In this document: positions 5,122 through 25,450 of the stretch, piece by piece
Numbering within the stretch: the first letter of the stretch is position 1
Layout of the letters: every line of letters starts with the position of its first letter
Origin: Nitrospirota bacterium
GTDB lineage: Bacteria > JACPQY01
NCBI GenBank assembly: GCA_016180645.1
Contig: JACPAV010000042.1
Coordinates: 1-27,167, forward strand
Reading direction: 5' to 3'
DNA: 27,167 bases
The notes under the pieces: generated by a model
The model's input: the letters and a program-made list of their open reading frames with translations, nothing else
Told to the model about the DNA's origin: nothing
The model's database searches: none
Translations under genes and position numbers: made by a program

Positions 5122-5131
5122 TCCGTCAGGC

Positions 5132-7805: not shown

Positions 7806-7816
7806 CCGGAAAATAA

Positions 7817-7835: not shown

Positions 7836-7889
7836 CCCCTGCCCTATTCGCTCAGTATAGCACGCCCCGACCGGCCGAAAGTTTCCCAC

Positions 7890-7937: not shown

Positions 7938-7939
7938 GC

Positions 7940-8023
7940 TTATGCCCGCTTCTTGGTTGGGATCAGGGCGATCACGCCCAAGATGAGCGTGACGAGAGAC
8001 ATGAAAACGAGTGCTTTTACCAT
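7940..8023 (-). CDS. 27-aa single-span membrane miniprotein
   Basis: ATG 8023 immediately follows the TAG of the 61-aa ORF (TAGATG), and the frame ends at TAA 7940. The product, MVKALVFMSLVTLILGVIAL plus IPTKKRA, is one hydrophobic helix with a positively charged C-terminal tail, a credible membrane miniprotein. No Shine-Dalgarno of its own, so translation would depend on re-initiation. Such short frames can arise by chance; the tight junction and clear helix support it only moderately. Confidence 0.4.
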   Translation of the reverse strand: MVKALVFMSLVTLILGVIALIPTKKRA

Positions 8024-8209
8024 CTAGTCATCGCCGCCTTTTCTCCAGAAGTACCAACTGATCACGAAGAGAAGTATAACATTCACGAGTCCCACCGGCA
8101 AGAACCACCATTTCCATTGTGGATTGGAGGCGAATCCGAAGATGAAAACTGCGAAGGCAACGGCGATCAGAGTCAGACAAAGCTTTGAGACCTCGCGGAA
8201 CCATTTCAT
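8024..8209 (-). CDS. 61-aa two-span membrane protein
   Basis: Its ATG overlaps the stop codon of the giant lipoprotein gene (TAATG at 8207-8211), a typical translational coupling. The product has two hydrophobic helices, about residues 9-27 (KLCLTLIAVAFAVFIFGFA) and 35-53 (WFLPVGLVNVILLFVISWY), and a charged tail WRKGGDD. No family recognised. It probably sits in the inner membrane and is co-expressed with the lipoprotein. The next micro-ORF follows directly. Confidence 0.55.
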   Translation of the reverse strand: MKWFREVSKLCLTLIAVAFAVFIFGFASNPQWKWWFLPVGLVNVILLFVISWYFWRKGGDD

Positions 8210-11200
8210 TACGGCAGGCCGACGACGGGAACGGGGGTGAGGCGGGTGATGGTCGTGCCGTCGCCAATTTGTCCTCTATAGTTCCACCCCCAGCATCGCG
8301 CGGTGCCATCGGCCACCACAGCGCAGGAGTGCCGTCCACCCGCGACCAACCCAACCGAATTGGACATATTCGAAACCTGCACCGGTGTGCTCTTGCCAGC
8401 CGTGGTTCCATCACCGAGTTGCCCGTTGCTGTTGTCTCCCCAGCACTTGACAGTGCCGTCCGCGAGCAACGCGCAGTTATGATCATGGTGCCCTATGACG
8501 GCAACCGCGGCAGTGAGACTTGAGACAACGGTGGGCAAAGTTTTCCCGAGACCGCTGCCATCACCCAGCTTGCCTGCCGTGTTCTGCCCCCAGCACTTCA
8601 CGATACCGGTTGATAGAATGGAGCAGGTGTGCTGGTAGCTGGCGCTGATTCCCACCACGGCGGAAAGGCTTGCAACCGGGATTGGCGTGAGCCGTTGGAT
8701 GGTCGTCCCGTCTCCGAGTTGTCCATTTACGTTCCAACCCCAACACATGACCGTGCCATCCGATTTGAGCCCGCAGGTGTGAGTATCTCCCGCAGAAATG
8801 CCAACCAGTCCAGAGAGGGACGGCACGGCTGCAGGAGTCTTCTTGGTCGTCAGGGTCCCGTCACCAATTTGCCCATAGTTATTCGCCCCCCAGCACTTCG
8901 CGGTGCCATCGGAGATGACCGCGCAGACGTGACCCGAAACGATAGTTTCGTCTCCTCCACAGTCCATGGCGATGACGCCGGTTAGCGTGGATACTGCGGC
9001 CGGCGAGTACCGATTTGTCGTTGTTCCATCGCCAAGCTGTCCATTGTTGTTCTCGCCCCAACATCGTACCGTTCCATCAGACCCGAGCGCGCACGAATAG
9101 TACGCGCCACCGCAAATCGCCGTTGATGACGAAAGGGAGCTTACTTGGACAGGCGTTGATCTGTTGCTGGTCGTGCCGTCTCCGAGCTGTCCGTCGGAAT
9201 TCCCGCCCCAGCATTTTGCCGTCCCGTCCGAGAGAAGCGCACAGACATGGCCTTCTCCCTCGGCCAGGCCAAGTCTCCACGGGCGGCCCGGGCCGCCGCG
9301 GCCGGAGGAGGATTCGTGGAGGCGTGGGAGTTTCACGCCGAGGGGACCGCTGAGGTTGGTGACGGCGACCGGCACCATGGTTTCGTTTGTTGTACCGTCT
9401 CCGAGAAGCCCGACGGTGTTGTTTCCCCAGCACCTTGCTGTCCCATCTGAAAGAACAGTACATGCGTGAACGTCCCCTGCCGCGAGAGCGACGGCGCCGC
9501 TTAGGTTGGAGACCACCACCGGCGTACTCCTGTCTATTGTCGTCGCATCGCCAAGCTGACCAACATTGTTTTTGCCCCAACATTTCACAGTCCCATTTGA
9601 AAGGATAGAACAAGTAAAGGCACTGCCAGCCCAAATGTCTACCGCACCCGTTAGAGAGGATACGGGCACCGGTGTGATCTTGTCCACAGTCGTTCCGTCG
9701 CCCAATTGGCCATATGCGTTGTATCCCCAGCATTTCACGGTACCGTCCAAGATCAAGGAACAGGTGTATTGACTACCCCCCGCAATGGTGACAGCGCCGG
9801 TTAGACTCAACACGGCTACGGGCGTATTCCTATCTACTGTCGTTCCATCGCCCAACTGGCCAAGGTTGTTGAACCCCCAGCATTTCGCTGTGCCGTTCGA
9901 GATAAGGGAACAAGCGTGGGCGTCTCCCCCCGTGACTGCGACGCCGCCAGACAACGTGGAAACGGCGACTGGTGTGGGTCTAGACGAGCCTAAGGAGTAC
10001 AACGACGTTCCGTCGCCAATTTGGCCGGTGAAATTGTATCCCCAGCATTTGACAGTACCGTCTGAAAGAAGCGCGCAGCTATGATTGCCCCCCCCCGCGA
10101 CTGCCACGGCGCCGGATAGGCTGGACACGACTGCGGGCGTCGGCTTATCCGCCGTCGTGCCATCCCCGAGTTGGCCGGCACCGTTGGATCCCCAGCATTT
10201 TACCGAGCCGTCCGACATTAGGCCACAGGTGTGGTGGATCCCTGCCGCAACGGCGATCGCACCGGACAGGGTGGACACAGCTAGCGGCATGTTTCTATCC
10301 AGCGTCGTACCGTCGCCTAATTGGCCATAGTCGTTCCAGCCCCAGCATTTGACGGTTCCGTCGGCGGCCAGCACGCAGGTGTGATCGCTACCTGCCGTGA
10401 CGGCCTGGATGTTTCCACCGGTTGGGCCGCCACCACCGGAAGTTGTCGCGTTCGCTTCGTTGGAGAAGGCGGAGTTGTTGGCGCCGGTATAGGCGTAGAC
10501 GCGGTAGAAGTATTGGGTGGAGGGGGTGAGGCCGGCGATGCTCATGGTAATTACGTTGGCGGAGGCGGGCCCAAGGTACGCGTACGATCCCCCTGCCCCG
10601 ATTTTCTGGTCGACCTTGAAGCCGTCTTCGTTGGCGGAGTTGTCGGTCCAGCTCAGGTTGATCTGAGTGGACGAGACGGCAGTCGCGGTCAATCCGCTCG
10701 GCGCGGCGGGCGTGCAGACGCCGCCCTCGTCCGTGCTCCCGTCGCAGTTGTTGTCGATTCCGTCGCAGATTTCGATTCCTGGATTACCCACCGTGGCCGA
10801 GCATTGAGTCGCCGTCCCATCGGCTTTGCACACGAAGGTCCCGGAAGACTGACACGCCCCCTGCCCTGCGGTGCAGGCTTGCCCCTTGTTGACGAAGTCC
10901 TCATCGCTCGAAGCGTCGCAGTCGTTGTCGAGGTTGTCGCAAAGTTCAGCGCTAGGCGCCAGGCTCGAGGCGCAAACAAGAGAACCACTTGTGCAGGTTT
11001 GCGTGCCTGCCGCGCAAACGCCGGGCTGGGCCGTTGTGCAGCTTCCGCCGCCACTCACCCCATTGTCGATCGTTCCGTTGCAGTCATTGTCCAGCCCGTC
11101 GCAGAGTTCCGATGTCGGGAGGATTTCTCCGGTGCAGGTGCCCCAGAGGCCGCCGGAGCAGGTCTGGGAGCCGGTTTTGCAGGCACCGATCGTGTTCGTC

Positions 11201-14200
11201 CCGCTGGGACCGCTGTAACAGACTTGGGTGGTCCCATTCGTGCATTGACAGATCTCGTCGATCTTCCCGTTGCAGTCGTTGTCGATCCCGTCGCCGCAGA
11301 CCTCGCTCGTCTGGGCCAGAGTTTGCACGCACACCAGAAGCCCCGACTGGCACTGTTGAGTCCCGCCCGAACAGATGCCGGTCTTAGTCGTGGAGCAGAA
11401 GGACCCGCCCGTATTCTCGTCCACCTTTCCATCGCAGTTGTTGTCGAGGCCGTCGCACATTTCGGCGCCAGGCGCCAGGCTCGAGGCGCAAGCAAGAATT
11501 CCGGCGGAGCATTTCATCGTGCCGGCGGCGCACACGCCAAGGGCGGTAGTCGAGCAGGAGGAGCCGCCGAGCCCGTCGTCCACCTTCCCGTCGCAGTTGT
11601 TGTCGAGGTTGTCGCAGATTTCCACGTTCCCGGGGAACTTGGCCTTGTTGGCGTCGTCGCAGTCACCGGGCTTCGCGACGGCCACGTACCCGGCGGTCGG
11701 AGCGCAACCTTGAACAAATCCACCGTCCGTGTAGCCATCGCCGTCCGCGTCCTTGTAGCTGATGGCGCTTTGAGGAACGTCGTCCACCTTTCCGTTGCAG
11801 TCGTTGTCGGCCCCGTCGCAGACTTCAGTTCCTTTGGGAAAGGCTTTCGCGTTGGCATCGTCGCAATCGACTCCCGCCACGAATCCATCGCCGTCCTTGT
11901 CCTCGCCCACCTGGATCTCCGCCGTGGCCGTGCCGCTCCCTTTCTTGGGATCTTCAACCACGACGCTCAGGTTGTACTTGCCGCTCTCGGAAGGCGCCGT
12001 CCATTCCGCCTGGGGATCATCGCCTTTGTAGCTCGTCGGCGCCTTCTTCTTTCCGGGATTCTCTTTCACCTTTTCCAACTTTCCACCGGATGCGACCCAC
12101 GCGTAGCTCAGCTTGTCCCCGTCCGGATCAGAAGCCGTCACGCTCACCACGAGGCTCTCTCCCGGCGATGCGATCTTCTTGGGGATGGAAAGCTCTCCCA
12201 CGGTGGGTGGGCTGTTGATGTCGATCGATTTGTCGACTACGACGCAGGCCCCGCAGGCCGCCGCCCCGCCCGTCTCGACCTCCTCATCCGCTTCCACGTC
12301 CGATCCGCCGCCGCCCTTTGCGCTGATGCTGTGTTTCACTTTGACTTTCACTTTCTGTTTCGTCGGCGCGATCACGCAATACTTCCCGTTCGCATCCGTG
12401 GCCACCATCTGGCTCCCCACGCGCACCGAGGCGCCGTTGACCGCCTTCCCCTTCTGATCGGTGATCGTGCCGCTCACGCAGGAGTCTCCAACCTCCATGA
12501 CAATGTCGGCGAGAACGCACTTGGTCTGTCCTCCGCCGCAGTTGCCGCCGCCCACGATCTTCACCTTCTGCGATTTCTTATGATTCTTGCTCTTCCCGCG
12601 ATCGTAGTAGTTGAAGTTGAGGTCCACTTCCGCCGGCGCCGTCTCGAGACAGTAATTCCCGCCCTGATCGCTGGCGGCGTACGATGAGCCGGCCATGACG
12701 GAGGTGTTCTTGAGCAGGTTCCCGGCGTCATCCTCGATCTTGCCCCGCACACAGCCGACGTCGGCCTTTTTCACCTCGACGACTCCGATCTCCACCGGTG
12801 GGGCCGACACGCACTCACCCGGCCCGGGCGTAAAGCCCGGCACGGCGATCGTCTGCTTCGCGGGGGCAAATTTGAGGTAGGACTGGGGGTAGTACGCCGC
12901 CATGGGATTCTGCGATATCGTGAGATCGACGGCGTCCGCCGCCGCGAGCGCCAGGCTGAACGCGCCCTTGTCGTCCGTCGTGGCAGAGGTTCCACCGCCA
13001 TTGACGACCGCGCCCGCCACCCCCTTGCCACCGGATTCCTGGACTTTCCCGCGCACTTCCCGGAGTTTTGGCGGCGCGATGAGGATATCGCCCACGTCCG
13101 TGCACGCCTCCGACGGCGTCACGCACGTGGAAGCCGTGTCGGGCGCCGTCACGTCCTTCCGGGCCAGGATCTCCTTCATCTTGATCGTGCCCCAGCTCGG
13201 GTTGTCCACCCCCTGCCCGGCCTGGATCTCCAGGGTACCGTTTCGCATGACATCCAGACAGAACTTTCCGTCATCGCCCGTCGGGAGGATCTTCTTGTTT
13301 GACCATCCGTAGGTGCCGTTGCAAAAAGCCGAGGGGTAACTCTTTCCTTGCGAACAGACGTGGAGGTTCTTGACCGCCTCCCCGCACGCGTCCACGATTC
13401 GGCCGCGCACGCAGTGATGGGTATCGACAGCCTGGTCCACGTTCCACCACGAGAAGTGCTTCGCCTTGAATTGCATGAACTGGACGCCGCTGTCCTCCAC
13501 CACGGAGGCCACGACCGGATTCCCCGCCTCGTCCAGCTCGGGGACCCACGTCCCGAGCGCCTCGTCGATGTACCAGACTTCGATGGAGTCGCCGATCACA
13601 TACGGCGCGCCGGTCTTGGGATTGAGGGACCCGGTGGGAATTTTGAGCTTCACGTCCGCGGGGCTGTTGAGCTTCGGGATGGCGTTGCCTGCTTCATCGC
13701 GAAGCGTGATGTTCGCGTACACCACCGAAGCGAGTTCGACCGATTCGCCCACGGTCTCGCCATTCGCCCGCTTCACTGCCCGTTTCGATGCGCCGCGGAC
13801 GCCCCCGCGCACCCCGCCCCGAACGCCTTGGACGGCCACGAAGCCTCCGGGGAATTCGCTGGACGCTTCCCGCGGGTTGCCGACGACCACTTCCGCCTTA
13901 ACGGGACCGCTGGTCCCCAACGCGGCGGCGGCATTCGGGATCTGGACGGAAATCGAATTGTCCGGCGCTTTCAGCTCGGCCGTGCCGGATTCGGAAATGG
14001 CCAGGGACTGAACAAATTGGACCGGCTGAACCGAAAGCGGAACTTGTTTCGTTCCCGCCGCCAGCTCCATCACCTGCGCTTGAGGGGCGTAACCGGCCAT
14101 GTCCGCCACGACGGAGACGTTGCCCGAGGGCGACTCGACGGCGAAGTTCCCCTGCCCGTCCGTCGTGGCCGAAGCGATCTTGGTCGGGTCGTCGATGGAC

Positions 14201-14439
14201 GTGACGCGAATGCTGGCACCCGCGAGAGGGGATTTGGATTCCGAGTCGGAAAGCTGGCCGACCAGTTGGGTGGTGCCCTTGGCAGCCGAAGATGCCTCCG
14301 ACGCACCGCCGGACAGCTTTTTCCCCATGATCCGGCCTCCCTTGGATTCGCAAGAAGAGAGGCTGATGAGCAGAGCGGCAGCCAAGAGAATTGTGATAGC
14401 AGAAGCCAAGCTAAGCGGGCTCCTCCCCCGAGGATTCAT
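8209..14439 (-). CDS. Giant lipoprotein A: carboxypeptidase-like, MopE, FN3 and 14 RCC1 motifs
   Basis: A 2076-aa exported protein. ATG 14439 gives a lipoprotein signal MNPRGRSPLSLASAITILLA.. with lipobox ending Cys30; the frame upstream to 14517 holds the promoter and is not coding. Order (approximate residues): carboxypeptidase-regulatory-like fold 55-130; GVRGG tract about 201-216; cys-containing carboxypeptidase-like modules 345-735; Ig/PKD-like 741-845; seven MopE-type motifs (CDGxDNxCDGxxDE) with cys-rich spacers 845-1250; FN3 1250-1335; RCC1 motifs 1340-2076. I count 14 CWG motifs, and a linker (LPRLHESSSGRGG..) separates motifs 7 and 8, so two seven-bladed propellers are likely. Each blade has two Cys (HTC..KCWG). 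Probably surface-exposed; ligand unknown. The stop overlaps the 61-aa gene. Confidence 0.9.
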   Translation of the reverse strand: MNPRGRSPLSLASAITILLAAALLISLSSCESKGGRIMGKKLSGGASEASSAAKGTTQLVGQLSDSESKSPLAGASIRVTSIDDPTKIASATTDGQGNFAVESPSGNVSVVADMAGYAPQAQVMELAAGTKQVPLSVQPVQFVQSLAISESGTAELKAPDNSISVQIPNAAAALGTSGPVKAEVVVGNPREASSEFPGGFVAVQGVRGGVRGGVRGASKRAVKRANGETVGESVELASVVYANITLRDEAGNAIPKLNSPADVKLKIPTGSLNPKTGAPYVIGDSIEVWYIDEALGTWVPELDEAGNPVVASVVEDSGVQFMQFKAKHFSWWNVDQAVDTHHCVRGRIVDACGEAVKNLHVCSQGKSYPSAFCNGTYGWSNKKILPTGDDGKFCLDVMRNGTLEIQAGQGVDNPSWGTIKMKEILARKDVTAPDTASTCVTPSEACTDVGDILIAPPKLREVRGKVQESGGKGVAGAVVNGGGTSATTDDKGAFSLALAAADAVDLTISQNPMAAYYPQSYLKFAPAKQTIAVPGFTPGPGECVSAPPVEIGVVEVKKADVGCVRGKIEDDAGNLLKNTSVMAGSSYAASDQGGNYCLETAPAEVDLNFNYYDRGKSKNHKKSQKVKIVGGGNCGGGQTKCVLADIVMEVGDSCVSGTITDQKGKAVNGASVRVGSQMVATDANGKYCVIAPTKQKVKVKVKHSISAKGGGGSDVEADEEVETGGAAACGACVVVDKSIDINSPPTVGELSIPKKIASPGESLVVSVTASDPDGDKLSYAWVASGGKLEKVKENPGKKKAPTSYKGDDPQAEWTAPSESGKYNLSVVVEDPKKGSGTATAEIQVGEDKDGDGFVAGVDCDDANAKAFPKGTEVCDGADNDCNGKVDDVPQSAISYKDADGDGYTDGGFVQGCAPTAGYVAVAKPGDCDDANKAKFPGNVEICDNLDNNCDGKVDDGLGGSSCSTTALGVCAAGTMKCSAGILACASSLAPGAEMCDGLDNNCDGKVDENTGGSFCSTTKTGICSGGTQQCQSGLLVCVQTLAQTSEVCGDGIDNDCNGKIDEICQCTNGTTQVCYSGPSGTNTIGACKTGSQTCSGGLWGTCTGEILPTSELCDGLDNDCNGTIDNGVSGGGSCTTAQPGVCAAGTQTCTSGSLVCASSLAPSAELCDNLDNDCDASSDEDFVNKGQACTAGQGACQSSGTFVCKADGTATQCSATVGNPGIEICDGIDNNCDGSTDEGGVCTPAAPSGLTATAVSSTQINLSWTDNSANEDGFKVDQKIGAGGSYAYLGPASANVITMSIAGLTPSTQYFYRVYAYTGANNSAFSNEANATTSGGGGPTGGNIQAVTAGSDHTCVLAADGTVKCWGWNDYGQLGDGTTLDRNMPLAVSTLSGAIAVAAGIHHTCGLMSDGSVKCWGSNGAGQLGDGTTADKPTPAVVSSLSGAVAVAGGGNHSCALLSDGTVKCWGYNFTGQIGDGTSLYSLGSSRPTPVAVSTLSGGVAVTGGDAHACSLISNGTAKCWGFNNLGQLGDGTTVDRNTPVAVLSLTGAVTIAGGSQYTCSLILDGTVKCWGYNAYGQLGDGTTVDKITPVPVSSLTGAVDIWAGSAFTCSILSNGTVKCWGKNNVGQLGDATTIDRSTPVVVSNLSGAVALAAGDVHACTVLSDGTARCWGNNTVGLLGDGTTNETMVPVAVTNLSGPLGVKLPRLHESSSGRGGPGRPWRLGLAEGEGHVCALLSDGTAKCWGGNSDGQLGDGTTSNRSTPVQVSSLSSSTAICGGAYYSCALGSDGTVRCWGENNNGQLGDGTTTNRYSPAAVSTLTGVIAMDCGGDETIVSGHVCAVISDGTAKCWGANNYGQIGDGTLTTKKTPAAVPSLSGLVGISAGDTHTCGLKSDGTVMCWGWNVNGQLGDGTTIQRLTPIPVASLSAVVGISASYQHTCSILSTGIVKCWGQNTAGKLGDGSGLGKTLPTVVSSLTAAVAVIGHHDHNCALLADGTVKCWGDNSNGQLGDGTTAGKSTPVQVSNMSNSVGLVAGGRHSCAVVADGTARCWGWNYRGQIGDGTTITRLTPVPVVGLP
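8213..8260. repeat. Partner copy of the 48-bp direct repeat
   Basis: Coding 3' end of giant lipoprotein A; matches 7890-7937 at 44 of 48 positions in the same orientation. The interval between the copies (7938-8212) holds just the two micro-ORFs. Confidence 0.8.
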
Positions 14440-14445
14440 GCCCGA

Positions 14446-14474
14446 ATTGTGAGGAAAATTGGTATCAATGTCAA
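14446..14474 (-). promoter_or_regulatory. Promoter of giant lipoprotein A (near leaderless)
   Basis: On the complement, TTGACA (14469-14474) and CACAAT (14446-14451) with a 17-nt spacer. The -10 ends 6 nt from the ATG, so transcription should begin at about the start codon. The spacing TTGACA-N29-ATG is identical in giant lipoprotein B. Confidence 0.65.
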
Positions 14475-14503
14475 GGCAGAAATCACGCCAGGGGCGCCAC
14501 TTG

Positions 14504-14517
14504 GTGACGGAGGTCAC
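14504..14517 (-). promoter_or_regulatory. CRP/FNR-like operator upstream of lipoprotein A
   Basis: GTGACCTCCGTCAC on the complement, that is TGTGA-N6-TCACC, close to the CRP-family consensus TGTGA-N6-TCACA. Its centre is about 71.5 bp upstream of the predicted transcription start, a classic class I activator position. Between site and -35 a 23-bp block (14480-14502) is conserved with lipoprotein B (21 of 23). Confidence 0.6.
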
Positions 14518-14575
14518 AATTCAAAATATCTGGAATCCACCCTGCCTGAGTGGAGGATGGGAGCGGTCGACGCAG

Positions 14576-17500
14576 CTACGGAAGAAGAACCTGGACCGGT
14601 GTGTCTTTCCAGGCCATTCCGTCGCCGATCAATCCTGAGTTGTTGGATCCCCAGCAGGAAAGAGTGCCCGGCGATTGTACGCCGCAGGAATGGATTGACC
14701 CGACTGTGATCGAAGTCCAATTTGTGGCCGTGCCAACCTGCGTGGGGGCGAGTTTTTGTGTAATGGTTCCGTCGCCGAGCTGGCCGTACGAATTGATGCC
14801 CCAGCATGAAAGGCTTCCCGGCGATTGGATCCCGCAAGTGTGACTTGGGCCGGTGGTGATCGAAGTCCAGCTTGTCGCCGTGCCGACCTGGGTGGGGGTG
14901 AATCTTTGCGTCGTCGTTCCGTCACCGAGCTGACCCGATCCATTCTGGCCCCAGCACGAGAGGATGCCCGGCGATTGGACGCCGCAGGTGTGTGTGTAGC
15001 CGGTGGTGACCGAGGTCCAATTTGTGGCCGGCCCGACCTGCACGGGGGTGAGTTTCTGAATAGTCGTTCCGTCGCCGAGTTGGCCGTACGCATTGATGCC
15101 CCAGCACGAGAGTATGCCCGGCGATTGGACGCCGCAGGTATGGGTTGAGCCGGCTGTGGCCGAGGTCCAATTTGTGGCCGTCCCGACCTGTACGGGGGTG
15201 AGTCTTTGCGTAACAGACCCGTCGCCGAGTTGACCGTAAGCGTTCACTCCCCAGCACCAAAGGGATCCCGGTGATCGTATGCCGCAGGTGTAGCCTGAGC
15301 CCGTTGTGACCGCGGTCCAGTTCGTGGCCGTTCCGACCTGCACAGGGGTGAGTTGTTGCGTAACGGAGCCGTTGCCAAGCTGGCCGTAGCCGTTCAACCC
15401 CCAGCACCAGAGCGTACCGGTGGATTTGACGGCGCAGGTATGCAATGTCCCGGTCGAGATCGCAAGCCAGTCGGTATTGGAGCCCAGTTGAACTGGAGCC
15501 GCCCGGCTGGAGGTCGTCCCGTCGCCGAACTGTCCGTAGAGGTTTATCCCCCAGCACCACGCCGTTCCAGTGGCCCGCCGAGCGCAGGAATGGTAGTAGC
15601 TTGCCTGCGCCGTCGTCCAGTCTGAGGCGACTCCGACGGTGACAGGGATCTTGTAGTTCGGCAGGCTTCCGGACCCCGTTTGGCCCGAGGTGTTGTCTCC
15701 CCAACATTTCACCGAGCCATCCTGGAGTCGGGCGCACACGAACGAATCCCCCCCGCTCAATTCCACCACACCGGTCAGACCGATCACCGCAACGGGAGTG
15801 GACGATGCGACGGTCGAGCCGTTTCCCAATTGCCCGTTGGAATTGGATCCCCAGCATTTGACGGTTGAATCGGAGAGAAGGGCGCAGGAGTGACTATCCT
15901 CGGCCAGGACGGCGACCGCTGAGGATATTCCCGAGACGACGACGGGAGTGGTCCCGTATCCCGAACCCCAGCATTTCACGGCGCCATCCGCGAGAGCCGC
16001 ACAGGCGTGGAATCCTTCCGCGCTGACGCCGACGGCCGTGGAGATTCCAACCACGGCTACGGGCAAGTTGGACAGCGTGACGGAACTTCCATCGCCCAGT
16101 TGTCCCATGCCGTTGTCGCCCCAGCACTTAACGGTAGCGTCGGCCATCAGAGCGCAGTTCGAAGATTCATCGGTGGACAGGGTGACGACTCCCATCAGCC
16201 CGACGACACTGACCGGAGTGGTTGAATTCACGGTCGTGCCATCGCCGAGTTGCCCGTCATAGTTGGACCCCCAGCATCGAACGGTGGAATCGGCGAGGAC
16301 GGCACACTGATGGCTGGCTCCCCCGTCCACCGCTTTCGCACCCGTCAGGCCCGAGATGGTCGCAGGCGAGCCTGAGTTCGTCCAGCATTTCACAGAACCA
16401 TCCGACAAAACCGCGCAGTTGTTGGATGCGCCCGATCCGACGTTCTCGACGCCCACGAGGCCGCTCACTTGAACGGGTACGCCGCCGAAGGCGCCGCCCC
16501 AGCAGCGCACCGTCGTGTCGGCCATGATCGCGCACGTTTGACTCCAGCCCCCGTCCAGCCGTTTCTGAACGAAACCCGCAGGCGTGGTCCCTCCCGCTTC
16601 GTTGGAGTAGGCTGAGTTGTCCGCGCCGAGGAATGCAGCCACACGATAGGTGTACGTCGTCCCACCCGAGAGACCCATGCTGGAGTACGACATAATGTTT
16701 GGGCCGACCGTGGCAAGGGCTGCAAAGGCGCCGCCGCCGATTTTCTGCTCGACCACGAATCCCGCCTCGTTTGAAGCGTTGTCCGCCCAGCTCAGATTGA
16801 TCCGGGAGGACGAGACGATGACCGCCATGAGATTGCTCGGAGCGGCAGGGGCGCAGATGCCGCCTTCGTCCGTGCTGCCGTCACAGTCGTTGTCCATCCC
16901 ATCGCAAATTTCAGTAGCGGGAGCGCCGGGAATCGCCGAGCATTCCGTCCCGGTTCCATCAGCCTTGCAGGAGAAAGTCCCTGTCGACTGGCACGCCCCC
17001 TGCCCCGCCGAGCATGCCTGTCCCTTGTTGGTGAATTCCTCATCTGTGCTTCCATCGCAGTCGTTGTCGAGGTTGTCGCAGATGTCGGCACTGGGCGCGA
17101 GGCTTGAGGCGCAAGCCAGGCTTCCTGCCGTGCATTGCTGCGTGCCCGCGGAGCAGACTCCCGCCTGAGTCGAAGTGCAACTCGCAGCCCCCAGCCCGTT
17201 GTCCACCGCGGCGTCGCAATCGTTGTCCTTGCCGTCGCACGTCTCCAAAGCCGGCAGAACTTCTCCGGTACAGTTTCCCCAAATGCCTCCCGCACAGGTC
17301 TGCGTGCCCGCTTTGCAGGATCCTACGTTCCTCGTGCTTGCTGCGCCGCTGTAGCAGGACTGGCTGCTTCCATCGCTGCACTGGCAGACTTCATCGATCC
17401 TGCCGTTGCAATCGTTGTCGATCCCATCGCCGCACACCTCGGAGGTTTGCGCGAGGGTTTGAACACAGACCAGACTGCCCGACCGGCACTGCTGAGTCCC

Positions 17501-20365
17501 CCCCGCACACAGACCGCTCCGACCGGTGGCGCAGAGCGTTCCGCCTGTGTTTTCGTCCACCCTTCCGTTGCAATTGTTGTCCAGGCCGTCGCAAATCTCG
17601 GCGCCAGGCGCCAGGATCGAGGCGCAGGCAAGAATTCCGGCGGTGCACTTCATCGTGCCCGCAGCACAGACGCCAAGGGAGGTGCTCGCACAGGACGATC
17701 CGCCGATCCCTTCGTCCACGCTTCCATTACAGTTGTTGTCGACTCCATCACACGATTCCGTCGCTCCCGGATACACGGCCGGATTGGAATCATTGCAGTC
17801 GGTCCCTGCGGGCGATTTGTCCCCATCTGCATCGACGGCCACTTCGATGTCCACGGAGGCCATGCCGGTTCCTTTTCGATTGTCCTCGACTCTCACGCTT
17901 ACCGTGTACTTGCCGGATGACGACGGAGCTTTCCAGGCAACCGCCGGGTCGGGACCTTTCAGGCTGGAGGGAGCCCTTCTGCCGCCGCTCGAAGTAATCT
18001 TACTGAGATCACCATCCGTAGACGTCCAAAGGAACTGGAGCGGGTCCCCCTCGGCGTCCGACGCGGTGGCCGTGACCACCACCTCATCACCGGGTTGGGC
18101 CACTTTCTTTGAGGACTCCAGTTTGGAAACCACGGGCGGCTCGTTGATGGTCAGGGTGCGATTAACGATGGTGCATCCGCCTCCGCACATTCCCGCCGAT
18201 CCGGTCTCGACGTCCACCTCGTCTTCAGACTCGCTGCCGCTCGTTCCCTGCCCGCCCGAGGCATGCTTGAGCGTCACCTTTACTTTCTGTTTGACCGGCG
18301 CCATGAGGCAGTACGCGCCGTCCGGCCCGGTGGTGACCATGGTGGAGCCCGCGCGCACGGTTGCGCCCGCCACGCCCGCGCCTTTCTGGTTGGTGACGCG
18401 GCCGCTGATGCAGGCGTCGCCCAGTTCAACCTCGATGTCGGCATGAACGCACCGATCGGACTCTCCGCCGCACTGGCCGCCACCGACGATCTGCACGCCT
18501 GATTTCTTGTTGTGCATGCGGCCCCGGCCCTTGTCGTAATAAGTCAATTTCAAGTCCTGATCGCCCTCGAGCGAGGCCAGGCAGTAGTTGCCTCCCTCAT
18601 CGGATTGAATGGTCGAACCCCCTATGGAGACGGTCGCCCCGGAGATGGGCCGGCCGGCTTCATCGAGCAGTTTGCCTCGGGCGCACCCGGTCTCCGTGTC
18701 AAGCGCGACCGTGCCCAAATCGACAGCCGCGAGGGCATCACACTGGCCCGGCGAGGGACTGACGCCCGGAACGGAGATCTTGTTTTCTTTCCTGCCTCGA
18801 AGGGCGCCTTCCGGGTGCGTAATGCTGAGAAGCAGATCGTCGCCGGGCTCCGTTTCAACGCTGAACAGGCCATTGGCGTCCGCCTTGGCGAGCCGTTTTC
18901 CCAGGGAGACCACCGCTCCGGGAACGGGGACTGCGCCGGCACCAACCACCTTTCCGCTCACTTTTCGAAGCGTTGGAGTGATGGAAACGTCGCCCAGATC
19001 CTGACATGCAGCGCCTGCGTCGGCGCACGTACCCACGGTATTGGACATCGTGACATTCTGTTTCGTGAACGTCTCGGTGAACGAAAAGTTGAACCAGCCC
19101 CACTGGCCACCGACGCCGGTTTCCACGCTGATCGTGCTGCCTTTCAAAGCGTCCAAACAGAACTTCCCGTTTTCCCCCGTGGGCTCCTCTTTCTTGTCGA
19201 CTCCCCCACCGAACTGGAGCGCAGCGGTGCCCAACACGCCATTGCAGGTGGCCCCGTTGAAGGTCACGCCGTTCCCGCAGACACGAATATCTTTCTTGGG
19301 CTGCCCGCATGGATCGATCACCCGGCCGCGGACGCAGCTTCGGGTGGAGATAGGCTGATCGAGGTTCCACCAACTGAAGTGCCGCGCCATGAACTCACTG
19401 TAGAGCCCGTCATCCCCCTGGACGACGGTTCCCAGCACCTGTTGTCCACCGTCGTCCAACTCCGGTACCCACGTGCCGAGTGTTTCGTCCACGTAGTACG
19501 TTGGGACGGTGTCGCCAACCTTGAACGGCACACTCGTGGCCGGATTCATCGATCCGGTGGGGATTTTCATGCGAACCTTGGCAGGTTGCTTGAGGGAGCT
19601 GATGATGTTGCCCTCTGAGTCGCGCAAGGTAATATTGCCGAACATGATGCTGGCCAATTCGACCACTTCACCGATCGGCTCTCCCGCCTTGCGCACAACG
19701 GCGCGCTTGGACCCCGCGCGCAATCCGCCTCGGAGGCCGGCGCTCACGGCCATGAAGCCACCCGGGAATGCATCGCGGTCCTGGCGGGGATCGCCCACGG
19801 TAATTTCCGCGCGGATGGGTCCGGTCGCGCCGAGAGCTTTGGAAGGATCGGTGATTTCGATACTAAGGCTGTTGCCAGGCACTTTCACGGCAAGCGACTT
19901 TGTGTCCGCGTCGATCACGGTTTCCTGCATGAACGTTACGGGTTGGGCCCTCATCTGGACGGTGTTCGCGCCGGGGCTGAGTTGGAGCACTTGGGCCTGT
20001 GGAGCAAAGCCCTCCTTCTCTACGGAGATGGAGGCCGTCCCTTCGCCGCCGAGGGTCAGGCTGAACAAGCCCGTTCCATCCGTTGTCCCTTCTGCAAGCA
20101 CGGATGGATCCAGCACGGAGACGACCTTGACCTTTGCGCCGGCGATGGCTTCACCGGATTCCATGTTTAGCACCCGGCCCACGATATCCGAGCTCCGGAG
20201 GACTTCCGTCGTCTTGACCGCAGTCGCCCCGTTTCCGGTGAGGGTTGCCCCGAGAATACGACCTCCCTTGCCTTGGCAGGAAGTCATGCTCAGAATAAGC
20301 AGGAAGGCAAGGAACAGCGAAACCATGGACGCCAGACTCAGCGGATTCTTCCCCCGAGGATTCAT
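14576..20365 (-). CDS. Giant lipoprotein B: carboxypeptidase-like, MopE, FN3 and 14 RCC1 motifs
   Basis: A 1929-aa paralogue of lipoprotein A. ATG 20365 gives MNPRGKNPLSLASMVSLFLA.. and lipobox Cys30; the frame up to 20443 is promoter. Order (approximate residues): carboxypeptidase-regulatory-like 50-125; GLRGG tract 207-222; cys-containing carboxypeptidase-like modules to about 735; Ig/PKD-like 738-840; six MopE-type motifs 842-1172; FN3 1172-1265; RCC1 region 1268-1929. Fourteen CW(G/T) motifs: the first seven are of type VKCWG..GLTGVV, the last seven of type LSCWG..GTATNWTSITTG, so the repeat subtype changes exactly at the 7/8 boundary. Motifs 1, 2 and 5 are shortened. The MopE part is very similar at DNA level to that of A. 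Exported, probably surface-bound; role unknown. Confidence 0.9.
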   Translation of the reverse strand: MNPRGKNPLSLASMVSLFLAFLLILSMTSCQGKGGRILGATLTGNGATAVKTTEVLRSSDIVGRVLNMESGEAIAGAKVKVVSVLDPSVLAEGTTDGTGLFSLTLGGEGTASISVEKEGFAPQAQVLQLSPGANTVQMRAQPVTFMQETVIDADTKSLAVKVPGNSLSIEITDPSKALGATGPIRAEITVGDPRQDRDAFPGGFMAVSAGLRGGLRAGSKRAVVRKAGEPIGEVVELASIMFGNITLRDSEGNIISSLKQPAKVRMKIPTGSMNPATSVPFKVGDTVPTYYVDETLGTWVPELDDGGQQVLGTVVQGDDGLYSEFMARHFSWWNLDQPISTRSCVRGRVIDPCGQPKKDIRVCGNGVTFNGATCNGVLGTAALQFGGGVDKKEEPTGENGKFCLDALKGSTISVETGVGGQWGWFNFSFTETFTKQNVTMSNTVGTCADAGAACQDLGDVSITPTLRKVSGKVVGAGAVPVPGAVVSLGKRLAKADANGLFSVETEPGDDLLLSITHPEGALRGRKENKISVPGVSPSPGQCDALAAVDLGTVALDTETGCARGKLLDEAGRPISGATVSIGGSTIQSDEGGNYCLASLEGDQDLKLTYYDKGRGRMHNKKSGVQIVGGGQCGGESDRCVHADIEVELGDACISGRVTNQKGAGVAGATVRAGSTMVTTGPDGAYCLMAPVKQKVKVTLKHASGGQGTSGSESEDEVDVETGSAGMCGGGCTIVNRTLTINEPPVVSKLESSKKVAQPGDEVVVTATASDAEGDPLQFLWTSTDGDLSKITSSGGRRAPSSLKGPDPAVAWKAPSSSGKYTVSVRVEDNRKGTGMASVDIEVAVDADGDKSPAGTDCNDSNPAVYPGATESCDGVDNNCNGSVDEGIGGSSCASTSLGVCAAGTMKCTAGILACASILAPGAEICDGLDNNCNGRVDENTGGTLCATGRSGLCAGGTQQCRSGSLVCVQTLAQTSEVCGDGIDNDCNGRIDEVCQCSDGSSQSCYSGAASTRNVGSCKAGTQTCAGGIWGNCTGEVLPALETCDGKDNDCDAAVDNGLGAASCTSTQAGVCSAGTQQCTAGSLACASSLAPSADICDNLDNDCDGSTDEEFTNKGQACSAGQGACQSTGTFSCKADGTGTECSAIPGAPATEICDGMDNDCDGSTDEGGICAPAAPSNLMAVIVSSSRINLSWADNASNEAGFVVEQKIGGGAFAALATVGPNIMSYSSMGLSGGTTYTYRVAAFLGADNSAYSNEAGGTTPAGFVQKRLDGGWSQTCAIMADTTVRCWGGAFGGVPVQVSGLVGVENVGSGASNNCAVLSDGSVKCWTNSGSPATISGLTGAKAVDGGASHQCAVLADSTVRCWGSNYDGQLGDGTTVNSTTPVSVVGLMGVVTLSTDESSNCALMADATVKCWGDNGMGQLGDGSSVTLSNLPVAVVGISTAVGVSAEGFHACAALADGAVKCWGSGYGTTPVVVSGISSAVAVLAEDSHSCALLSDSTVKCWGSNSNGQLGNGSTVASSTPVAVIGLTGVVELSGGDSFVCARLQDGSVKCWGDNTSGQTGSGSLPNYKIPVTVGVASDWTTAQASYYHSCARRATGTAWCWGINLYGQFGDGTTSSRAAPVQLGSNTDWLAISTGTLHTCAVKSTGTLWCWGLNGYGQLGNGSVTQQLTPVQVGTATNWTAVTTGSGYTCGIRSPGSLWCWGVNAYGQLGDGSVTQRLTPVQVGTATNWTSATAGSTHTCGVQSPGILSCWGINAYGQLGDGTTIQKLTPVQVGPATNWTSVTTGYTHTCGVQSPGILSCWGQNGSGQLGDGTTTQRFTPTQVGTATSWTSITTGPSHTCGIQSPGSLSCWGINSYGQLGDGTITQKLAPTQVGTATNWTSITVGSIHSCGVQSPGTLSCWGSNNSGLIGDGMAWKDTPVQVLLP

Positions 20366-20371
20366 GTGCGC

Positions 20372-20400
20372 ATATTGAGGGATTCCATTTTTGTTGTCAA
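20372..20400 (-). promoter_or_regulatory. Promoter of giant lipoprotein B (near leaderless)
   Basis: On the complement, TTGACA (20395-20400) and CAATAT (20372-20377), spacer 17 nt, -10 ending 6 nt from the ATG. Same geometry as lipoprotein A. Confidence 0.65.
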
Positions 20401-20429
20401 GTTCAAAATCACGCCAGCGCCGCCACTTT

Positions 20430-20443
20430 GTGACCACTATCAC
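20430..20443 (-). promoter_or_regulatory. CRP/FNR-like operator upstream of lipoprotein B
   Basis: GTGATAGTGGTCAC on the complement, that is CGTGA-N6-TCACA. It is centred about 71.5 bp from the predicted start of transcription, exactly as in lipoprotein A. Confidence 0.6.
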
Positions 20444-20488
20444 GCTTTGGAATATACCTAGTTCACCCCATCAGGGATGATCTCCAAC

Positions 20489-20502
20489 GTGACTTACATC
20501 AC
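20489..20502 (+). promoter_or_regulatory. CRP/FNR-like operator upstream of lipoprotein C
   Basis: GTGACTTACATCAC, that is CGTGA-N6-TCACT. Its centre is about 41.5 bp upstream of the predicted start and it abuts the -35, the classic class II activator position. Confidence 0.55.
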
Positions 20503-20530
20503 TGACAGAATATTCCAAACAAAGTATACT
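20502..20530 (+). promoter_or_regulatory. Promoter of giant lipoprotein C (near leaderless)
   Basis: CTGACA (20502-20507), 17 nt, TATACT (20525-20530), then 9 nt to the GTG start at 20540. No Shine-Dalgarno is present in the gap. Confidence 0.6.
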
Positions 20531-20539
20531 GGGCTAACT

Positions 20540-23500
20540 GTGAAGTTGGTGGCGGATCTCTGGGCGCGGAGCGAGCTGGGTTGGGCTTCTCTCATCGCGA
20601 TCTTCCTCGGGGGTGTGTTGCTCCTAAGCGTTTACGGCTGCGTGGGACAAGGGGGCGTCCTTGGCGGGCTTCCGATCGGTGAATCTGAATTGAAAATCAC
20701 CGTGGATATTCCCCTCACTTCGCAACAGGCGGTGGCCATCGAGGGTGTGCGGGATGCGGTGGCGGATGTCTACTGGAACGACGCGCCGGTGGGGACGTCG
20801 GTTCGAGGCGCGGTGCGCGGTGGCGTGAGCGGTGGAGTTCGTGCGGCGGAGACCGGCGGTGTTCGCACAGGGGTCAGAGCGGCCCTCTCCCGCTTGGTGG
20901 CCTCCGGCCAGTCGCGGGACGGCCATGCCGTCTTGGCTCCGGTGCGGCCACGATTGAATCACCTTCCGGAACATGGGGACGGATCGGCGGTCCCCGAAGG
21001 CGGAACATCCACCGCAAGCGCAGAGGAGATACTTTTCTCGTTCGAGGTCACTTTCACGCTTCCCGTCAAGTCGGCGGCGGAAGGCACAGGTGCGTTGAAC
21101 ACGAAAGTCCGGTCGCGAACAAGACCGGAGGTGGCCTATGTGGATCTCAAAGTCAGGGTGGACGTGAAGGCGTCCGAGGCGGATCCCGCGCGCGTGGAGA
21201 TCCTCTCCCAGGATGTCGGGTTCAACCAGGTGGAACTCCCGGACCTCGACGGCGACGGTGTGGCCACGCTCTTCGAGGTCGTTTCCAAGGGAGCAGATGC
21301 CGCCATGGATGCGGCGTCGAAACCGGATGAGACGACGCTCCAGTCGAAGCTGGAAAGCCTCAAGGCCGGGCTGGAGAATTCGCTCAAGGAGAGCGGATTT
21401 ACGACCGCGATCGTGATGGGCGAAGTGGATCTCACGCCGCCCGACACCCAGGTGGCGTCGAACGCCGAATCGCGAACGTCCGCGGAGGCCTACCGGTTTA
21501 CGTTCACATGCAACCCCCAGGAAGGGGGAACTGCCGTGGGAGCGCAGAAGCCCGGGGCGGCCAATGTATCCTTTTGCGTCTATCGATGCTCCCTGGTGGG
21601 CCCGGCGGACACGTTCGATTTCAAGCCGTGCGACACCCCGTTCTCCCTCAGCCCGGCGAAGGAGGGTGACTACACCCTCGCCGTGAAGGCGGCTGACGAA
21701 CTGGGGAATACGGATCAAACGCCGGCGACCGTTTCGTTCAAGGTCTTGCCGCCCGCCGTGTGCGGGAACGGGACGTGCGAGGCTGGGGAAACATCCGCCT
21801 CGTGCGCTGCGGACTGTCCCGCTCCGGACACGACGCCGCCAGATACCGCGCTCAGCGCGGCGAGTGGTCAGTTGCCAGTGGTCAGTGGTCAGTGGTTGAA
21901 CAAGACGGACATCAGTTTTACCCTGACCAGCACCGAGGCGGGTTCCACGTTTCAATGCTCGACTGACAATGGCGCGTGGTCGGTCTGCGCGAGCCCATTC
22001 GTCCTGAGCCAGTTGAAGGACGGGCCGCGAACGTTCTCGGTCTACGCTGTCGACAAGTCGGGGAACAAGGACCCCACTCCGGCCGTGTTCACGTGGAGAC
22101 TCGATACCACGGCTCCGGATACAACCATCACGGTCAAGCCATCAGCGCTCAACAATCAGCCTTCCGCCTCCTTCGAGTTCTCGTGTTCCGATCCGGTAGG
22201 CGCACCCTTTACGGGTGCGTCTTCGGACGCAGGCATGAAGCCTGCGGCTACCTGCACGTTTTTCTGCCAACTCGGCATCGGAGTCGCCGCGCTCTGCGCG
22301 TTCCCCTACTCTGCAACGGCTCTGCCCGAGGGATCCCAGACCTTCCAGGTTTATGCGCAGGACGCCGCGGGGAACAAGGACGCCACACCTGCCTCGGCCA
22401 CGTGGGCGGTGGACATGACTGCGCCGGACACCGCGCTGAGCGCGGCGAGTGGTCAGTTGGCAGTGGTCAGTGGTCAGTCCACAAACAAGACGGAGATCAC
22501 GTTTACGCTGAGCAGCCCCGATCCGTCGGTGACGTTCCAGTGTGCTCTCGACCTCGCTTTATTCTCCTCTTGCTCATCGCCCGCCACCTACAGCGCGTTG
22601 GCGGCGGGTAGCCACACGTTTGGCGCGCGTGCCGTGGATACGGCGGGGAACAACGACAGTACGCCTGTGACGTTCACCTGGAGCATCGACATCACGCCGC
22701 CGGACACGGCTATCAGCGTTCAGCCGTCAGCGGTCAGCAATCAGACTTCCGCGTACTTCGAGTTCTCGTCACCGGAGGTTGGGGTGACGTTCCAGTGCGC
22801 CTTGGACGCAGGTGCGTTCGGAACGTGCACGTCGCCCTACTCTCAGGCGGCGTTGCCCGCGGGCGCTCACACATTCAAAGTTCGTGCCGTGGACGCCGTG
22901 GGCAACGCGGATGCGACGCCTGCCGAGGCGACGTGGACCATCGACCTCACCGCGCCGACGTTCAGCGGTCTTACGAGCGCGACGGCCATCTCCACCACGC
23001 AAATCGACGTTGCGTGGACGGCGGCAACGGACAATGCCAGTGCCTCGTCCGCCATCGTCTACAAGATTTGTGCAAGCACTACCCCCGGCGCGTGCGCCGC
23101 GAATTTTGTCGTTTACGCCACGACGAATGCGGGAGTCACGTCCTATTCCGCCACGGGCCTGACCCCTTCGGCCACCTACTACGTCGTCGTTCGCGCCCAG
23201 GATCAGGTTGCGAACATCGACGCAAACATCGTCGAAAAATCGGCCGTCACGTGGGGAACCACCGGCGCCGCGCAGGCGATCACGAACCACCTCAGCAACC
23301 GCACCTGCGCGCTTCTTTCGGATGGCACGGTGAAATGCTGGGGGTGGAACGACTATGGTCAGCTTGGGGATGGGACAACGGCCCAGAAGACGACTCCGGT
23401 GGCCGTTTCCACCCTTTCGGGCGCGGTCGCCGTGACGGGAGGGGATAGGCAGACCTGCGCGCTCGCCTCGGACGGCACGGTGAAATGCTGGGGATACAAC

Positions 23501-25450
23501 TTCTATGGTCAGCTTGGGGATGGGACAACAGCCAATAAGACGACTCCGGTGGCCGTTTCCACCCTTTCGGGCGCCATCGCCGTGGCGGGAGGGATCAACC
23601 ACACCTGCGTGCTCGCCTCGAATGGCACGGTGAAATGCTGGGGATGGAACGCGAATGGTCAGCTTGGGGATGGGACGGTGGCAGACAAGACGACTCCGGT
23701 GGCCGTTTTCACCCTTTCGGGCGCGGTCGCCGTGGCGGGAGGGCTCTACCACACTTGCGCCCTCACCTCGGATGGATCGGTGAAATGCTGGGGATCCAAC
23801 GGCAACGGTCAGCTAGGGGATGGGACGACGGCCCAGAAGACGACTCCGGTGGCCGTTTCCACCCTTTCGGGTGCGGTCGCCGTGGCGGGAGGGACCTACC
23901 ACACCTGCGCCCTCGCCTCGGATGGCACCGTGAAATGCTGGGGACGCAATCTCTATGGTCAGCTTGGGGAAGGGACGACGGCGGATAAGACGACTCCGGT
24001 GGCCGTTTTCACCCTTTCGGGTGCGGTCGCCGTGGCGGGAGGGACTTATCACACCTGCGCCCTTGTCTCGGACGGCACGGTGAAATGCTGGGGAGGCAAC
24101 GGCGGTGGTCAGCTAGGGGATGGGACGACGGACCAGAGAACGACTCCCGTGGCCGTTTCCGCCCTTTCGGGTGCGGTCGCCGTGGCGGGAGGGAACGTCT
24201 ACACCTGCGCGCTCGTATCAGACGGGACCGTCAAGTGCTGGGGGGACAACTATTATGGCGGGCTTGGGGACGGAACCACCGCCAATCGCCTAACGCCCAC
24301 CGCCGTAACTTCACTGTCAGGCCCGCTCGGTGTCAGGCTCCCCCGCCTCCACGAATCCACCGCCTCCGGCGCGCCGGCTCGACCGTTCCGCGAGGGTCTC
24401 TCCGGCGGCGGCGTTCACACTTGCGCAATCATCTCCAACGGCACGGCCAAATGCTGGGGCCAGAATGATCAGGGCCAACTCGGCGATGGCACCACGACCA
24501 ACCGGCCCACACCTGTCCCCGTGTCGTCCCTTACGAGTGTCACAGGCATGGCCACCGGTCAATTCCACACCTGCGCTCTGGGCTCCGACGGGACCGCCAA
24601 GTGCTGGGGCGTAAATGGCAGCGGACAACTCGGCGACGGAACCAGCACCGGAAAGCTGCTGCCGACCGTCGTATCGACTCTGTCCAGCGCCATCAGTCTG
24701 AGCGCAGGGGCCAATCACACCTGCGCCTTGATGGCCGACGGCACAGCAAGGTGCTGGGGTGCAAACAGCGCCGGACAGGTGGGCGACACCACCGGGACCA
24801 ATCGCCTCGTGCCCACGACTGTAACTTCGCTTACCACAGCCGTAGCGCTCATTGCGGGCGGCTACCACAATTGCGGGCTCCTGGCAAACGGAACCGTGAA
24901 CTGCTGGGGGCGAGGGGCTGAAGGACAGACCGGAGACAATTCCGCGTCAACTCATTTCGCGCCGGCCGCCGTCTCCACCCTATCCGGAGTGGTAGCGCTG
25001 GCGATGGGAGACTACCACTCTTGCGGCCTCCTTTCAGACGGCACGGTCAGATGCTGGGGACGCAATTCTCTCGGTCAACTGGGCGACGGCACGACAACGG
25101 ATAGGCCCACTCCAATCGTCGTCTCAACGCTTACGGATGTGATTGCCACCGTCGCGGGTTCGGACCATACCTGCGCCCTGCTCTCCTCGGGACCGGTTCG
25201 TTGCTGGGGCGCCAATCAAGGGCAGCTCGGAGATGGGACCTCCATCGCGCGTGTCACACCTGTTTCGGTGGCGGGGATAACGGGGGTTGCAGGAATCACC
25301 GCGGGCGGTTCAGGCGGTGGATCAGGTCACTCGTGCGCCGTTCTTCCTGGCGGCACGGCCAAGTGCTGGGGACTCAACAATTCCGGCCAGCTCGGAGATG
25401 GAACGACCGGCAGCAAATCCACTCCAGTCTCCATCACGAGCCTCCCGTAG
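20540..25450 (+). CDS. Giant lipoprotein C: GVRGG tract, Ig-like repeats and 14 RCC1 motifs
   Basis: A 1636-aa exported protein. GTG 20540 directly after the promoter begins a signal peptide with lipobox VYGC (Cys34); the in-frame ATG at 20477 lies upstream of the promoter. Order (approximate residues): GVRGG-rich tract 86-115; calcium-type loop [15 protein letters not shown] about 233-248; one divergent Ig-like module; cys cluster [19 protein letters not shown] about 407-427; four Ig-like repeats (TxPDT..FQCxLD..CxSP..GNxDxTP) 430-803; FN3 803-903; 14 RCC1 motifs 910-1636. The linker [17 protein letters not shown] lies after motif 7, as in A. Motifs 1-6 are nearly identical 50-aa units, unlike 8-14. 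Ig repeats contain short DNA repeats and an in-frame REP-like element. It has no MopE or carboxypeptidase-like part. Likely surface-exposed; ligand unknown. Confidence 0.9.
21863..21895 (+). repeat. GGTCAGT-type short repeat inside coding sequence
   Basis: Reiterated AGTGGTCAGT units, read in frame as [12 protein letters not shown] related array lies at 22448-22478 and degenerate CAGCCGTCAGCGGTCAG arrays near 22139-22160 and 22713-22745. Each falls at the start of an Ig-like repeat of lipoprotein C. The unit resembles heptamer repeats usually found between genes. Confidence 0.7.
22195..22252. repeat. REP-like element inside lipoprotein C coding sequence
   Basis: Two hairpins (CGCACCC..GGGTGCG and CGCAGGC..GCCTGCG) are bounded by GGTAG and CTACC, matching the intergenic elements at 2711 and 6081. 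It is translated as [18 protein letters not shown] within the second Ig-like repeat, with no frameshift. Confidence 0.8.
23330..24229 (+). repeat. Six near-identical 150-bp tandem repeats encoding RCC1 blades 1-6
   Basis: The codon starting VKCWG recurs at 23330, 23480, 23630, 23780, 23930, 24080 and 24230, an exact 150-bp period. Units 1-6 share long identical stretches such as CGACTCCGGTGGCCGTTT, indicating recent amplification or conversion. Confidence 0.9.

Follow-up and report, generated by a model that had tools for sequence, protein, structure and literature searches.

Seven-bladed rings are known from the RCC1-like family (PF00415, PF13540, PF25390; RCC1, UVR8, HERC1/2, RPGR), in which blades of ~50 residues are closed into a ring by a 1+3 arrangement of strands. 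It is also known that 14 blades in one chain can form two seven-bladed rings, as in the WD40 protein WRAP (Npun_R6612 of Nostoc punctiforme; PMC9218822). Here we describe three neighbouring giant lipoproteins, P0001, P0002 and P0003, encoded in a 27,167-nt stretch of DNA (the window) from a Nitrospirota bacterium (JACPQY01; assembly GCA_016180645.1, contig JACPAV010000042.1). Each ends in a head of 14 RCC1-type blades, alike in blade sequence, blade length and ring closure to the RCC1-like family. We consider it likely that these heads are double seven-bladed rings whose blade number is set by folding, and that they present diversified recognition faces on stalks.

UVR8 is the best structural match to the heads. 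It differs in that here two rings directly follow one another at the C-terminal end of a lipoprotein, each blade has a Cys pair, one face is hypervariable and there is no Trp triad. BLIP-II, an inhibitor of class A beta-lactamase from Streptomyces (PDB 1jtd, 3qhy), is likewise a bacterial, secreted, seven-bladed RCC1-related ring, and binds protein with very high affinity (PMC6121496). It has one ring of short three-stranded blades, whereas the heads described here have two rings of mostly four-stranded 50-residue blades on a stalk. HERC1 and HERC2 (4o2w, 3kci, 7q40, 4l1m) also contain more than one seven-bladed RCC1 ring per giant protein, but they are ubiquitin ligases of eukaryotes, have no lipid anchor and carry their rings at widely separated places in the chain. 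The ACR4/CR4 CRINKLY ectodomain (7a0j, 7a0k) is an extracellular RCC1-related ring on a cell surface too; it belongs to a plant receptor kinase and is a single ring of shorter blades. The likeness to WRAP is in layout only: WRAP is of WD40 lineage, is a cytoplasmic STAND ATPase and has near-identical blades without a hypervariable pattern, whereas the blades here match RCC1 models and do not qualify as WD40 repeats. Fibrillar adhesins (PMC9210967) resemble the present proteins in combining a long repeat stalk with a variable head, and this layout would fit what is seen here at the level of sequence. We found no description in the open-access literature of tandem RCC1 rings on bacterial lipoproteins, nor of the count rule across genomes or the five-codon pattern reported below.

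Heads of two seven-bladed rings

CW(G/T) motifs occur 14 times in each of the three proteins, as a sequence-only reading of this DNA had stated, and an independent blade hidden Markov model likewise finds 14 in each. The first, iterative version of that model drifted to 77–101 columns and was discarded; the model was rebuilt at 50 columns. PF00415, PF13540 and PF25390 all score well above cut-offs in P0001, P0002 and P0003, with E-values of 9e-110, 3e-65 and 8e-115, respectively, for the whole protein against Pfam RCC1 and of 5e-136, 8e-128 and 4e-206 against the seven-blade model PF25390. Blades are spaced by 50 residues, except that blades 7 and 8 are 73 residues apart in P0001 and 72 in P0003, and that P0002 has three blades of 37–39 residues. 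The stop codon of all three genes lies 27 residues past the last CW, after the third strand of blade 14.

We predicted the structures of the P0003 and P0002 heads with AlphaFold2 (AF2), using nine aligned sequences. The P0003 head (739 residues) was modelled with a mean predicted local distance difference test (pLDDT) of 85. Specifically, its strands occupy residues 14–358 and 390–734, 28 strands per half (7 × 4); the first strand completes the last blade of the ring, and the core of the linker between the halves (residues 363–388) has pLDDT below 50. The P0002 head (675 residues; mean pLDDT 82) also forms two rings, without a long break. In structural superpositions, residues 10–363 of P0003 align with UVR8 with a Z of 57 and a root-mean-square deviation (rmsd) of 1.5–2.0 (353–357 residues aligned), and residues 324–675 of P0002 do so with a Z of 55 and an rmsd of 1.5 (351 aligned). 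Residues 10–324 of P0002 match the seven-bladed nvWRAP-T more weakly (Z 18.5). BLIP-II is matched by fold, with a Z of about 29, and also by sequence. The number of seven per ring is given by the UVR8 fit for P0003 ring 1 and P0002 ring 2, and by strand count and boundary for the other two rings, to which the nvWRAP-T match is added for P0002 ring 1.

The boundary between the rings is also visible in the arrays themselves. In 20 of the 21 complete 14-blade arrays of this genome there is one long step (68–75 residues), always after blade 7. The DNA identity of adjacent blades in these 21 arrays is 0.665 within rings and 0.604 across the 7|8 junction; the values for 29 arrays from 18 other genomes, most of them linkerless, are 0.603 and 0.494. 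When arrays were pooled and blade pairs were matched for distance, the largest effect among cuts 3 to 11 was at cut 7 (0.050 ± 0.007 here, 0.055 ± 0.010 elsewhere). This test replaced an earlier per-protein search for the best cut, which was made without distance matching, was noisy and favoured cut 7 in 4 of 18 local arrays. Sharing at fourfold sites is 0.476 between blades of the same ring, 0.365 between the two rings of one protein and 0.363–0.370 between different proteins. Because sharing across rings equals that between proteins, the ring, rather than the array, is the unit of homogenisation. The models, the superpositions on UVR8 and other seven-bladed RCC1 proteins, the gap after blade 7 and the drop in identity at 7|8 support the reading of the 14 blades as two closed seven-bladed rings per protein, consistent with the earlier proposal of two complete propellers in series.

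Blade counts follow the same number. This genome contains 33 arrays, 27 of them multiples of seven: 21 have 14 blades, six have 7, four have 13, one has 8 and one has 4. The array of 8 is the 5' part of a frameshifted gene, the 3' part of which is one of the sevens (L033:15509-16846), and the seven of L125 is the second ring of an array that is itself in the tally; true single rings here number about five. One gene (L036) has 14+14 blades. In other genomes, 96 of 114 arrays of 50–60-residue blades are multiples of seven, the longest array is a multiple of seven in 49 of 58 genomes, one array has 21 blades (L090) and one protein has three separate sevens (L095). Thus the multiples of seven that had been expected in homologues prevail outside this genome, and arbitrary blade numbers were not seen; the constancy of the number holds for the most part, but is not absolute, since 13, 12, 15, 8 and 6 occur.

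Some of these deviations have simple origins. The misfit counts of L182 and L096 are scoring gaps, while those of L086 (12) and L091 (15) are real; a count of 13 for L086 was rejected because its last unit is a false match. Arrays of 39-residue units scored as 13 were considered as exceptions and dismissed for L139 and L203, where half blades at both ends provide the fourteenth; L148 stays at 13. The four local 13s are 7+6 or 6+7, and their six-blade rings rank 1, 3, 13 and 17 of 50 in homogeneity (Mann–Whitney p = 0.008). The six-blade rings being unusually homogenised, either slippage or assembly collapse would fit the local 13s; the latter is a risk for repeats about which Pereira and Lupas have cautioned (PMC9218822).

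At L033, 13227-15884 and 15509-16846 form a 14-blade RCC1 gene with a frameshift inside blade 8, either a sequencing error or a decaying copy. L178 and L179 (G151 contig 6), in another genome, belong to a 9976-residue protein with at least four separate seven-bladed RCC1 arrays. Adjacent genes of a member of the Bdellovibrionales (L096:3754-7161 and 7140-10502) have RCC1 units of ~60 residues scored 7+6, and the gap probably hides another blade.

The linker records a common origin. In 15 of the genes examined it is near-identical, with an amino-acid identity of 0.89 and a fourfold identity of 0.69, compared with 0.64 and 0.40 for blades at equal positions. The linker region is shared by 20 of the 21 local 14-blade heads, and since it is nearly the same across genes, most local double heads share one ancestor. 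The linker of P0003 and P0001 (24305-24397, 9286-9351) is predicted to be disordered, yet no other part of the head is as conserved, silent sites included. Its core DNA occurs 17 times in the genome, on RCC1-array contigs and at linker positions only, and the idea of a mobile DNA repeat was rejected because the core is absent elsewhere. The blades behave differently from the linker: their identity between proteins is 0.595 at the same position and 0.590 at other positions. This lack of positional memory, together with ring-wise homogenisation, indicates that units turn over while the count stays; blades have either turned over or diverged to near saturation and then been re-amplified ring by ring. 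P0002 has no linker, the closest match to its ring 2 is a ring of a different genome, and linkerless 14s are found in many other genomes. Selection for a closed double propeller, as proposed earlier from the three genes, is therefore favoured by blade turnover at a kept count, but P0001–P0003 are not three independent origins, because 20 of 21 local heads share one linker and hence one ancestral double head. The independent cases are P0002 and the linkerless heads of other genomes.

Paired cysteines and hypervariable codons

Two cysteines, Cys7 and Cys17, are both present in 408 of the 411 scored local blades. Outside this genome, 749 blades carry the complete pair and 267 lack it altogether; 80 have the second only, part of which may be register errors, and one has the first only. 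Positions 7 and 17 face one another across the first hairpin. Because the two residues are coupled in presence, the pattern suggests one disulfide per blade.

Five of the 50 blade positions (3, 4, 20, 22 and 23) have an entropy above 3 bits. Two of them belong to the GxxH motif and the other three to WGxNxxG. Among same-ring blade pairs with less than 15% DNA difference (n = 37), codon positions 1 and 2 at the five sites differ at a rate of 0.61, compared with 0.116 for fourfold sites elsewhere and 0.057 for positions 1 and 2 of the other 45 codons. Asn21, which is flanked by two hypervariable codons, differs at a rate of 0.05, meaning that the boundary is sharp to one codon, and the third positions of codons 22 and 23 are at background (0.17 and 0.15). 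The five positions were defined in this genome; when 36 genes of other genomes were examined, the same positions stood out (0.50 vs 0.24).

In the UVR8 alignment, the five positions fall on W94, D96, R146, W233/R234 and W285/R286 (UVR8 number = index + 9, verified on the W285A mutant). R286–D96/D107 and R146–E182 are among the salt bridges of the UVR8 dimer (PMC5091643), and the hypervariable positions, as aligned, coincide with this dimer face. Trp makes up ~2% of the residues at the five positions, and the Trp triad of the UVR8 GWRHT motif is absent.

Mechanism and alternatives

One mechanism, which we regard as likely, accommodates these data. Each protein would consist of a lipidated N-terminal Cys, a long stalk with Ig-like and metal-binding domains, and a C-terminal head of two seven-bladed RCC1-type propellers. 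Each ring would close on itself, with one strand on its N-terminal side added to the final three of blade 7 (1+3), which accounts for the stop codon and the linker both following directly on the third strand of a seventh blade. Seven per ring would be fixed by folding, while blades are amplified, homogenised and diversified within the ring; copies of the wrong number would mostly be purged, leaving totals of 7, 14, 21 or 14+14. The Cys pair in the first hairpin probably gives one disulfide per blade, five positions per blade, placed on one face by alignment, change much faster than silent sites, and the stalks would hold the heads away from the cell.

Several points weigh against this account. 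The AF2 models derive from only nine sequences, their predicted template modelling (pTM) scores are 0.52–0.56, and high scores went to no more than one or two of the five models of each head. Most superposition rows span one ring per model. P0002 ring 1 is less certain, with pLDDT of 56–77 near 7|8, and the rings of P0001 are assigned by homology only, its head being 58% identical to that of P0003. Counts of 13, 12, 15, 8 and 6 do occur. The choice of near-identical blade pairs lowers silent divergence somewhat, and the placement of the variable face comes from sequence alignment to UVR8.

The number of 14 could be read in three other ways. P0002, like most 14-blade arrays outside this genome, has contiguous blades and no linker, as expected of one irregular solenoid or a single large ring. 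Such a structure is nevertheless highly improbable: the models split into 28+28 strands, one half fits closed UVR8 over ~350 residues, neither of the two folded heads yielded a solenoid, the identity drop at 7|8 persists in linkerless arrays, and 7 and 14 outnumber all other counts. It is scarcely credible that the counts are artefacts of collapsed short-read repeats. Several RCC1 genes do lie at contig ends and the six-blade rings are among the most homogenised, and an artefact may account for the 13s, but collapse cannot give the same 7+7 in divergent rings (to ~45% DNA identity) and in many unrelated genomes. A more substantial, though still unlikely, explanation is that 14 was merely inherited from one ancestral double head and is under no ongoing constraint. 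The shared and mostly near-identical linker region speaks for it, and three genes are too few to prove selection alone; against it stand the ring-wise homogenisation and missing positional memory of blades whose count is nevertheless kept, and the linkerless 14s, among them P0002, whose ring 2 is nearest to one of another genome.

The hypervariable codons have also been weighed against two other causes. Targeted mutagenesis by a diversity-generating retroelement would explain how first and second codon positions can approach saturation when the third positions of codons 22 and 23 remain at background, and the amino acids at these sites (Tyr, Ser, Gly, Asn, Asp) are reminiscent of such elements. 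It is very unlikely here and was rejected: this genome, 97% complete, has no match to a reverse transcriptase (PF00078), a pattern search for an adenine-rich template blade gave 11 inexact matches, all on RCC1-gene contigs, and none exact, and the conserved Asn that is flanked by two hypervariable codons has kept its adenines. Given these negative searches, we prefer to read the pattern as ordinary mutations under diversifying selection. A catalytic, signalling or structural role (RCC1 GTPase exchange, UVR8 light sensing, a scaffold), with the variability a result of relaxed constraint, would agree with a fold that is the same as in RCC1 and UVR8. We regard this as improbable, since the variability far exceeds the silent rate, unlike relaxation, and the Trp positions of the UVR8 GWRHT motif are hypervariable here. 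Moreover, P0001–P0003 carry lipoprotein signals, whereas Ran exchange is a eukaryotic intracellular function that is not expected in bacteria.

Anchors, stalks and role of the heads

The open reading frames of P0001 (8209-14517, −), P0002 (14576-20443, −) and P0003 (20477-25450, +) are all translated without interruption, and their parts are listed below. ATG codons at 14439 (P0001) and 20365 (P0002) are the likely starts in place of the listed GTGs, because a conserved signal peptide, MNPRG(R/K)xPLSLAS, begins at them.

Parts of the three lipoproteins, in window coordinates
Protein	Feature	Position	Strand	Basis
P0001	Lipobox cysteine (ISLSSC), +2 Glu	14350..14352	−	sequence
P0001	Stalk: CarboxypepD_reg, Ig-like (Big_9/PKD-like), five MopE metal-binding motifs, fn3	10423..14349	−	
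P0001	Propeller 1: closing strand and blades 1-7	9352..10422	−	boundaries by analogy with P0003 model
P0001	Inter-ring linker SGPLGVKLPRLHESSSGRGGPG	9286..9351	−	
P0001	Propeller 2: closing strand and blades 8-14, to stop codon	8212..9285	−	
P0002	Lipobox cysteine (LSMTSC), +2 Gln	20276..20278	−	sequence
P0002	Stalk, homologue of P0001 stalk (49% identity)	16604..20275	−	
P0002	Propeller 1: 7 blades including three short (37-39 aa)	15638..16576	−	model residues 10-324 match nvWRAP-T
P0002	Propeller 2: 7 blades, different blade lineage, without preceding linker	14579..15637	−	model, UVR8 match
P0003	Lipobox cysteine (LLLSVYGC), +2 Val	20639..20641	+	sequence
P0003	Stalk: several Big_3_3/Big_13/Y_Y_Y Ig-like domains and fn3-like domain	20642..23230	+	
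P0003	Propeller 1: ring of 28 strands whose seven blades are homogenised (DNA identity 0.77)	23270..24304	+	model
P0003	Inter-ring linker, predicted disordered, core pLDDT 24-37	24305..24397	+	model
P0003	Propeller 2: ring of 28 strands whose seven blades have diverged (DNA identity 0.50)	24398..25447	+	model

All three proteins have a lipobox, LSSC-E in P0001, MTSC-Q in P0002 and VYGC-V in P0003, and none has Asp at +2. In E. coli, a lipobox cysteine not followed by Asp at +2 directs sorting to the outer membrane; by this rule we infer that the three are anchored there as lipoproteins.

Stalks and heads are combined in different ways. P0001 and P0002 have a common stalk, 49% identical over 1326 alignment columns and with identical domain order, and heads of different lineages. 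P0001 and P0003 share a head type and show little likeness in their stalks. The strong divergence of all upstream domains noted in the sequence-only reading consequently holds for P0003 only. The stalk type of P0003 is found again in many other large proteins of this genome, some of which have other C-terminal propellers. Lipoprotein-like proteins with related stalks bear heads of the Kelch (L215, L220), NHL (L212, L217, L219) or YCF48/BNR (L213) type, and by these sequence comparisons the propeller heads appear exchangeable among stalks. The Kelch head of L220 (699-9587, −; 2963 residues) reads 6+6 with a short insert, and L215 has eight Kelch repeats. L220 is a possible double six-bladed head, a parallel at the preferred number of the Kelch family.

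Among neighbouring genes, a tyrosine recombinase of the phage integrase family (6879-7802, +) adjoins the 3' end of P0001 and is preceded by a PadR regulator, with SelB and SmpB genes close by. The open reading frames at 5093-6082 (+) and 25686-26849 (+), of 329 and 387 residues, have no Pfam match, and an Rfam scan of the window gave no match.

The heads are most likely diversified recognition or adhesion modules on interchangeable stalks. From sequence we also infer surface exposure, the disulfides, binding of partners by the ring faces, and diversifying selection as the cause of the variability. A Myxococcus RCC1 protein has been found among outer-membrane vesicle proteins (PMC4158809); by analogy, this and the binding by BLIP-II are in keeping with a surface binding function, short of proof. 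More speculatively, and with less than even confidence, the genome may hold about 25–30 disulfide-stapled RCC1 heads, mostly double rings, in which strong diversifying selection would act on ~70 hypervariable face positions of each double head. These would serve programmable surface recognition (of prey, neighbours, phages or hosts) by a logic like that of lamprey variable lymphocyte receptors, with the stalks also bearing Kelch, NHL and YCF48-type heads.

The arrays amount to a natural test of propeller counting, in which units are gained, lost and homogenised while totals are kept at multiples of seven, ring by ring. Five codons per blade outpace silent sites, and they lie at the place by which known RCC1-type rings contact their partners. 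Should the heads prove to bind variable targets, one genome would contain many stable, disulfide-rich binders with specificity positions that have already been located, which, if true, would be of use in ecology, for the targets recognised, and in binder design.
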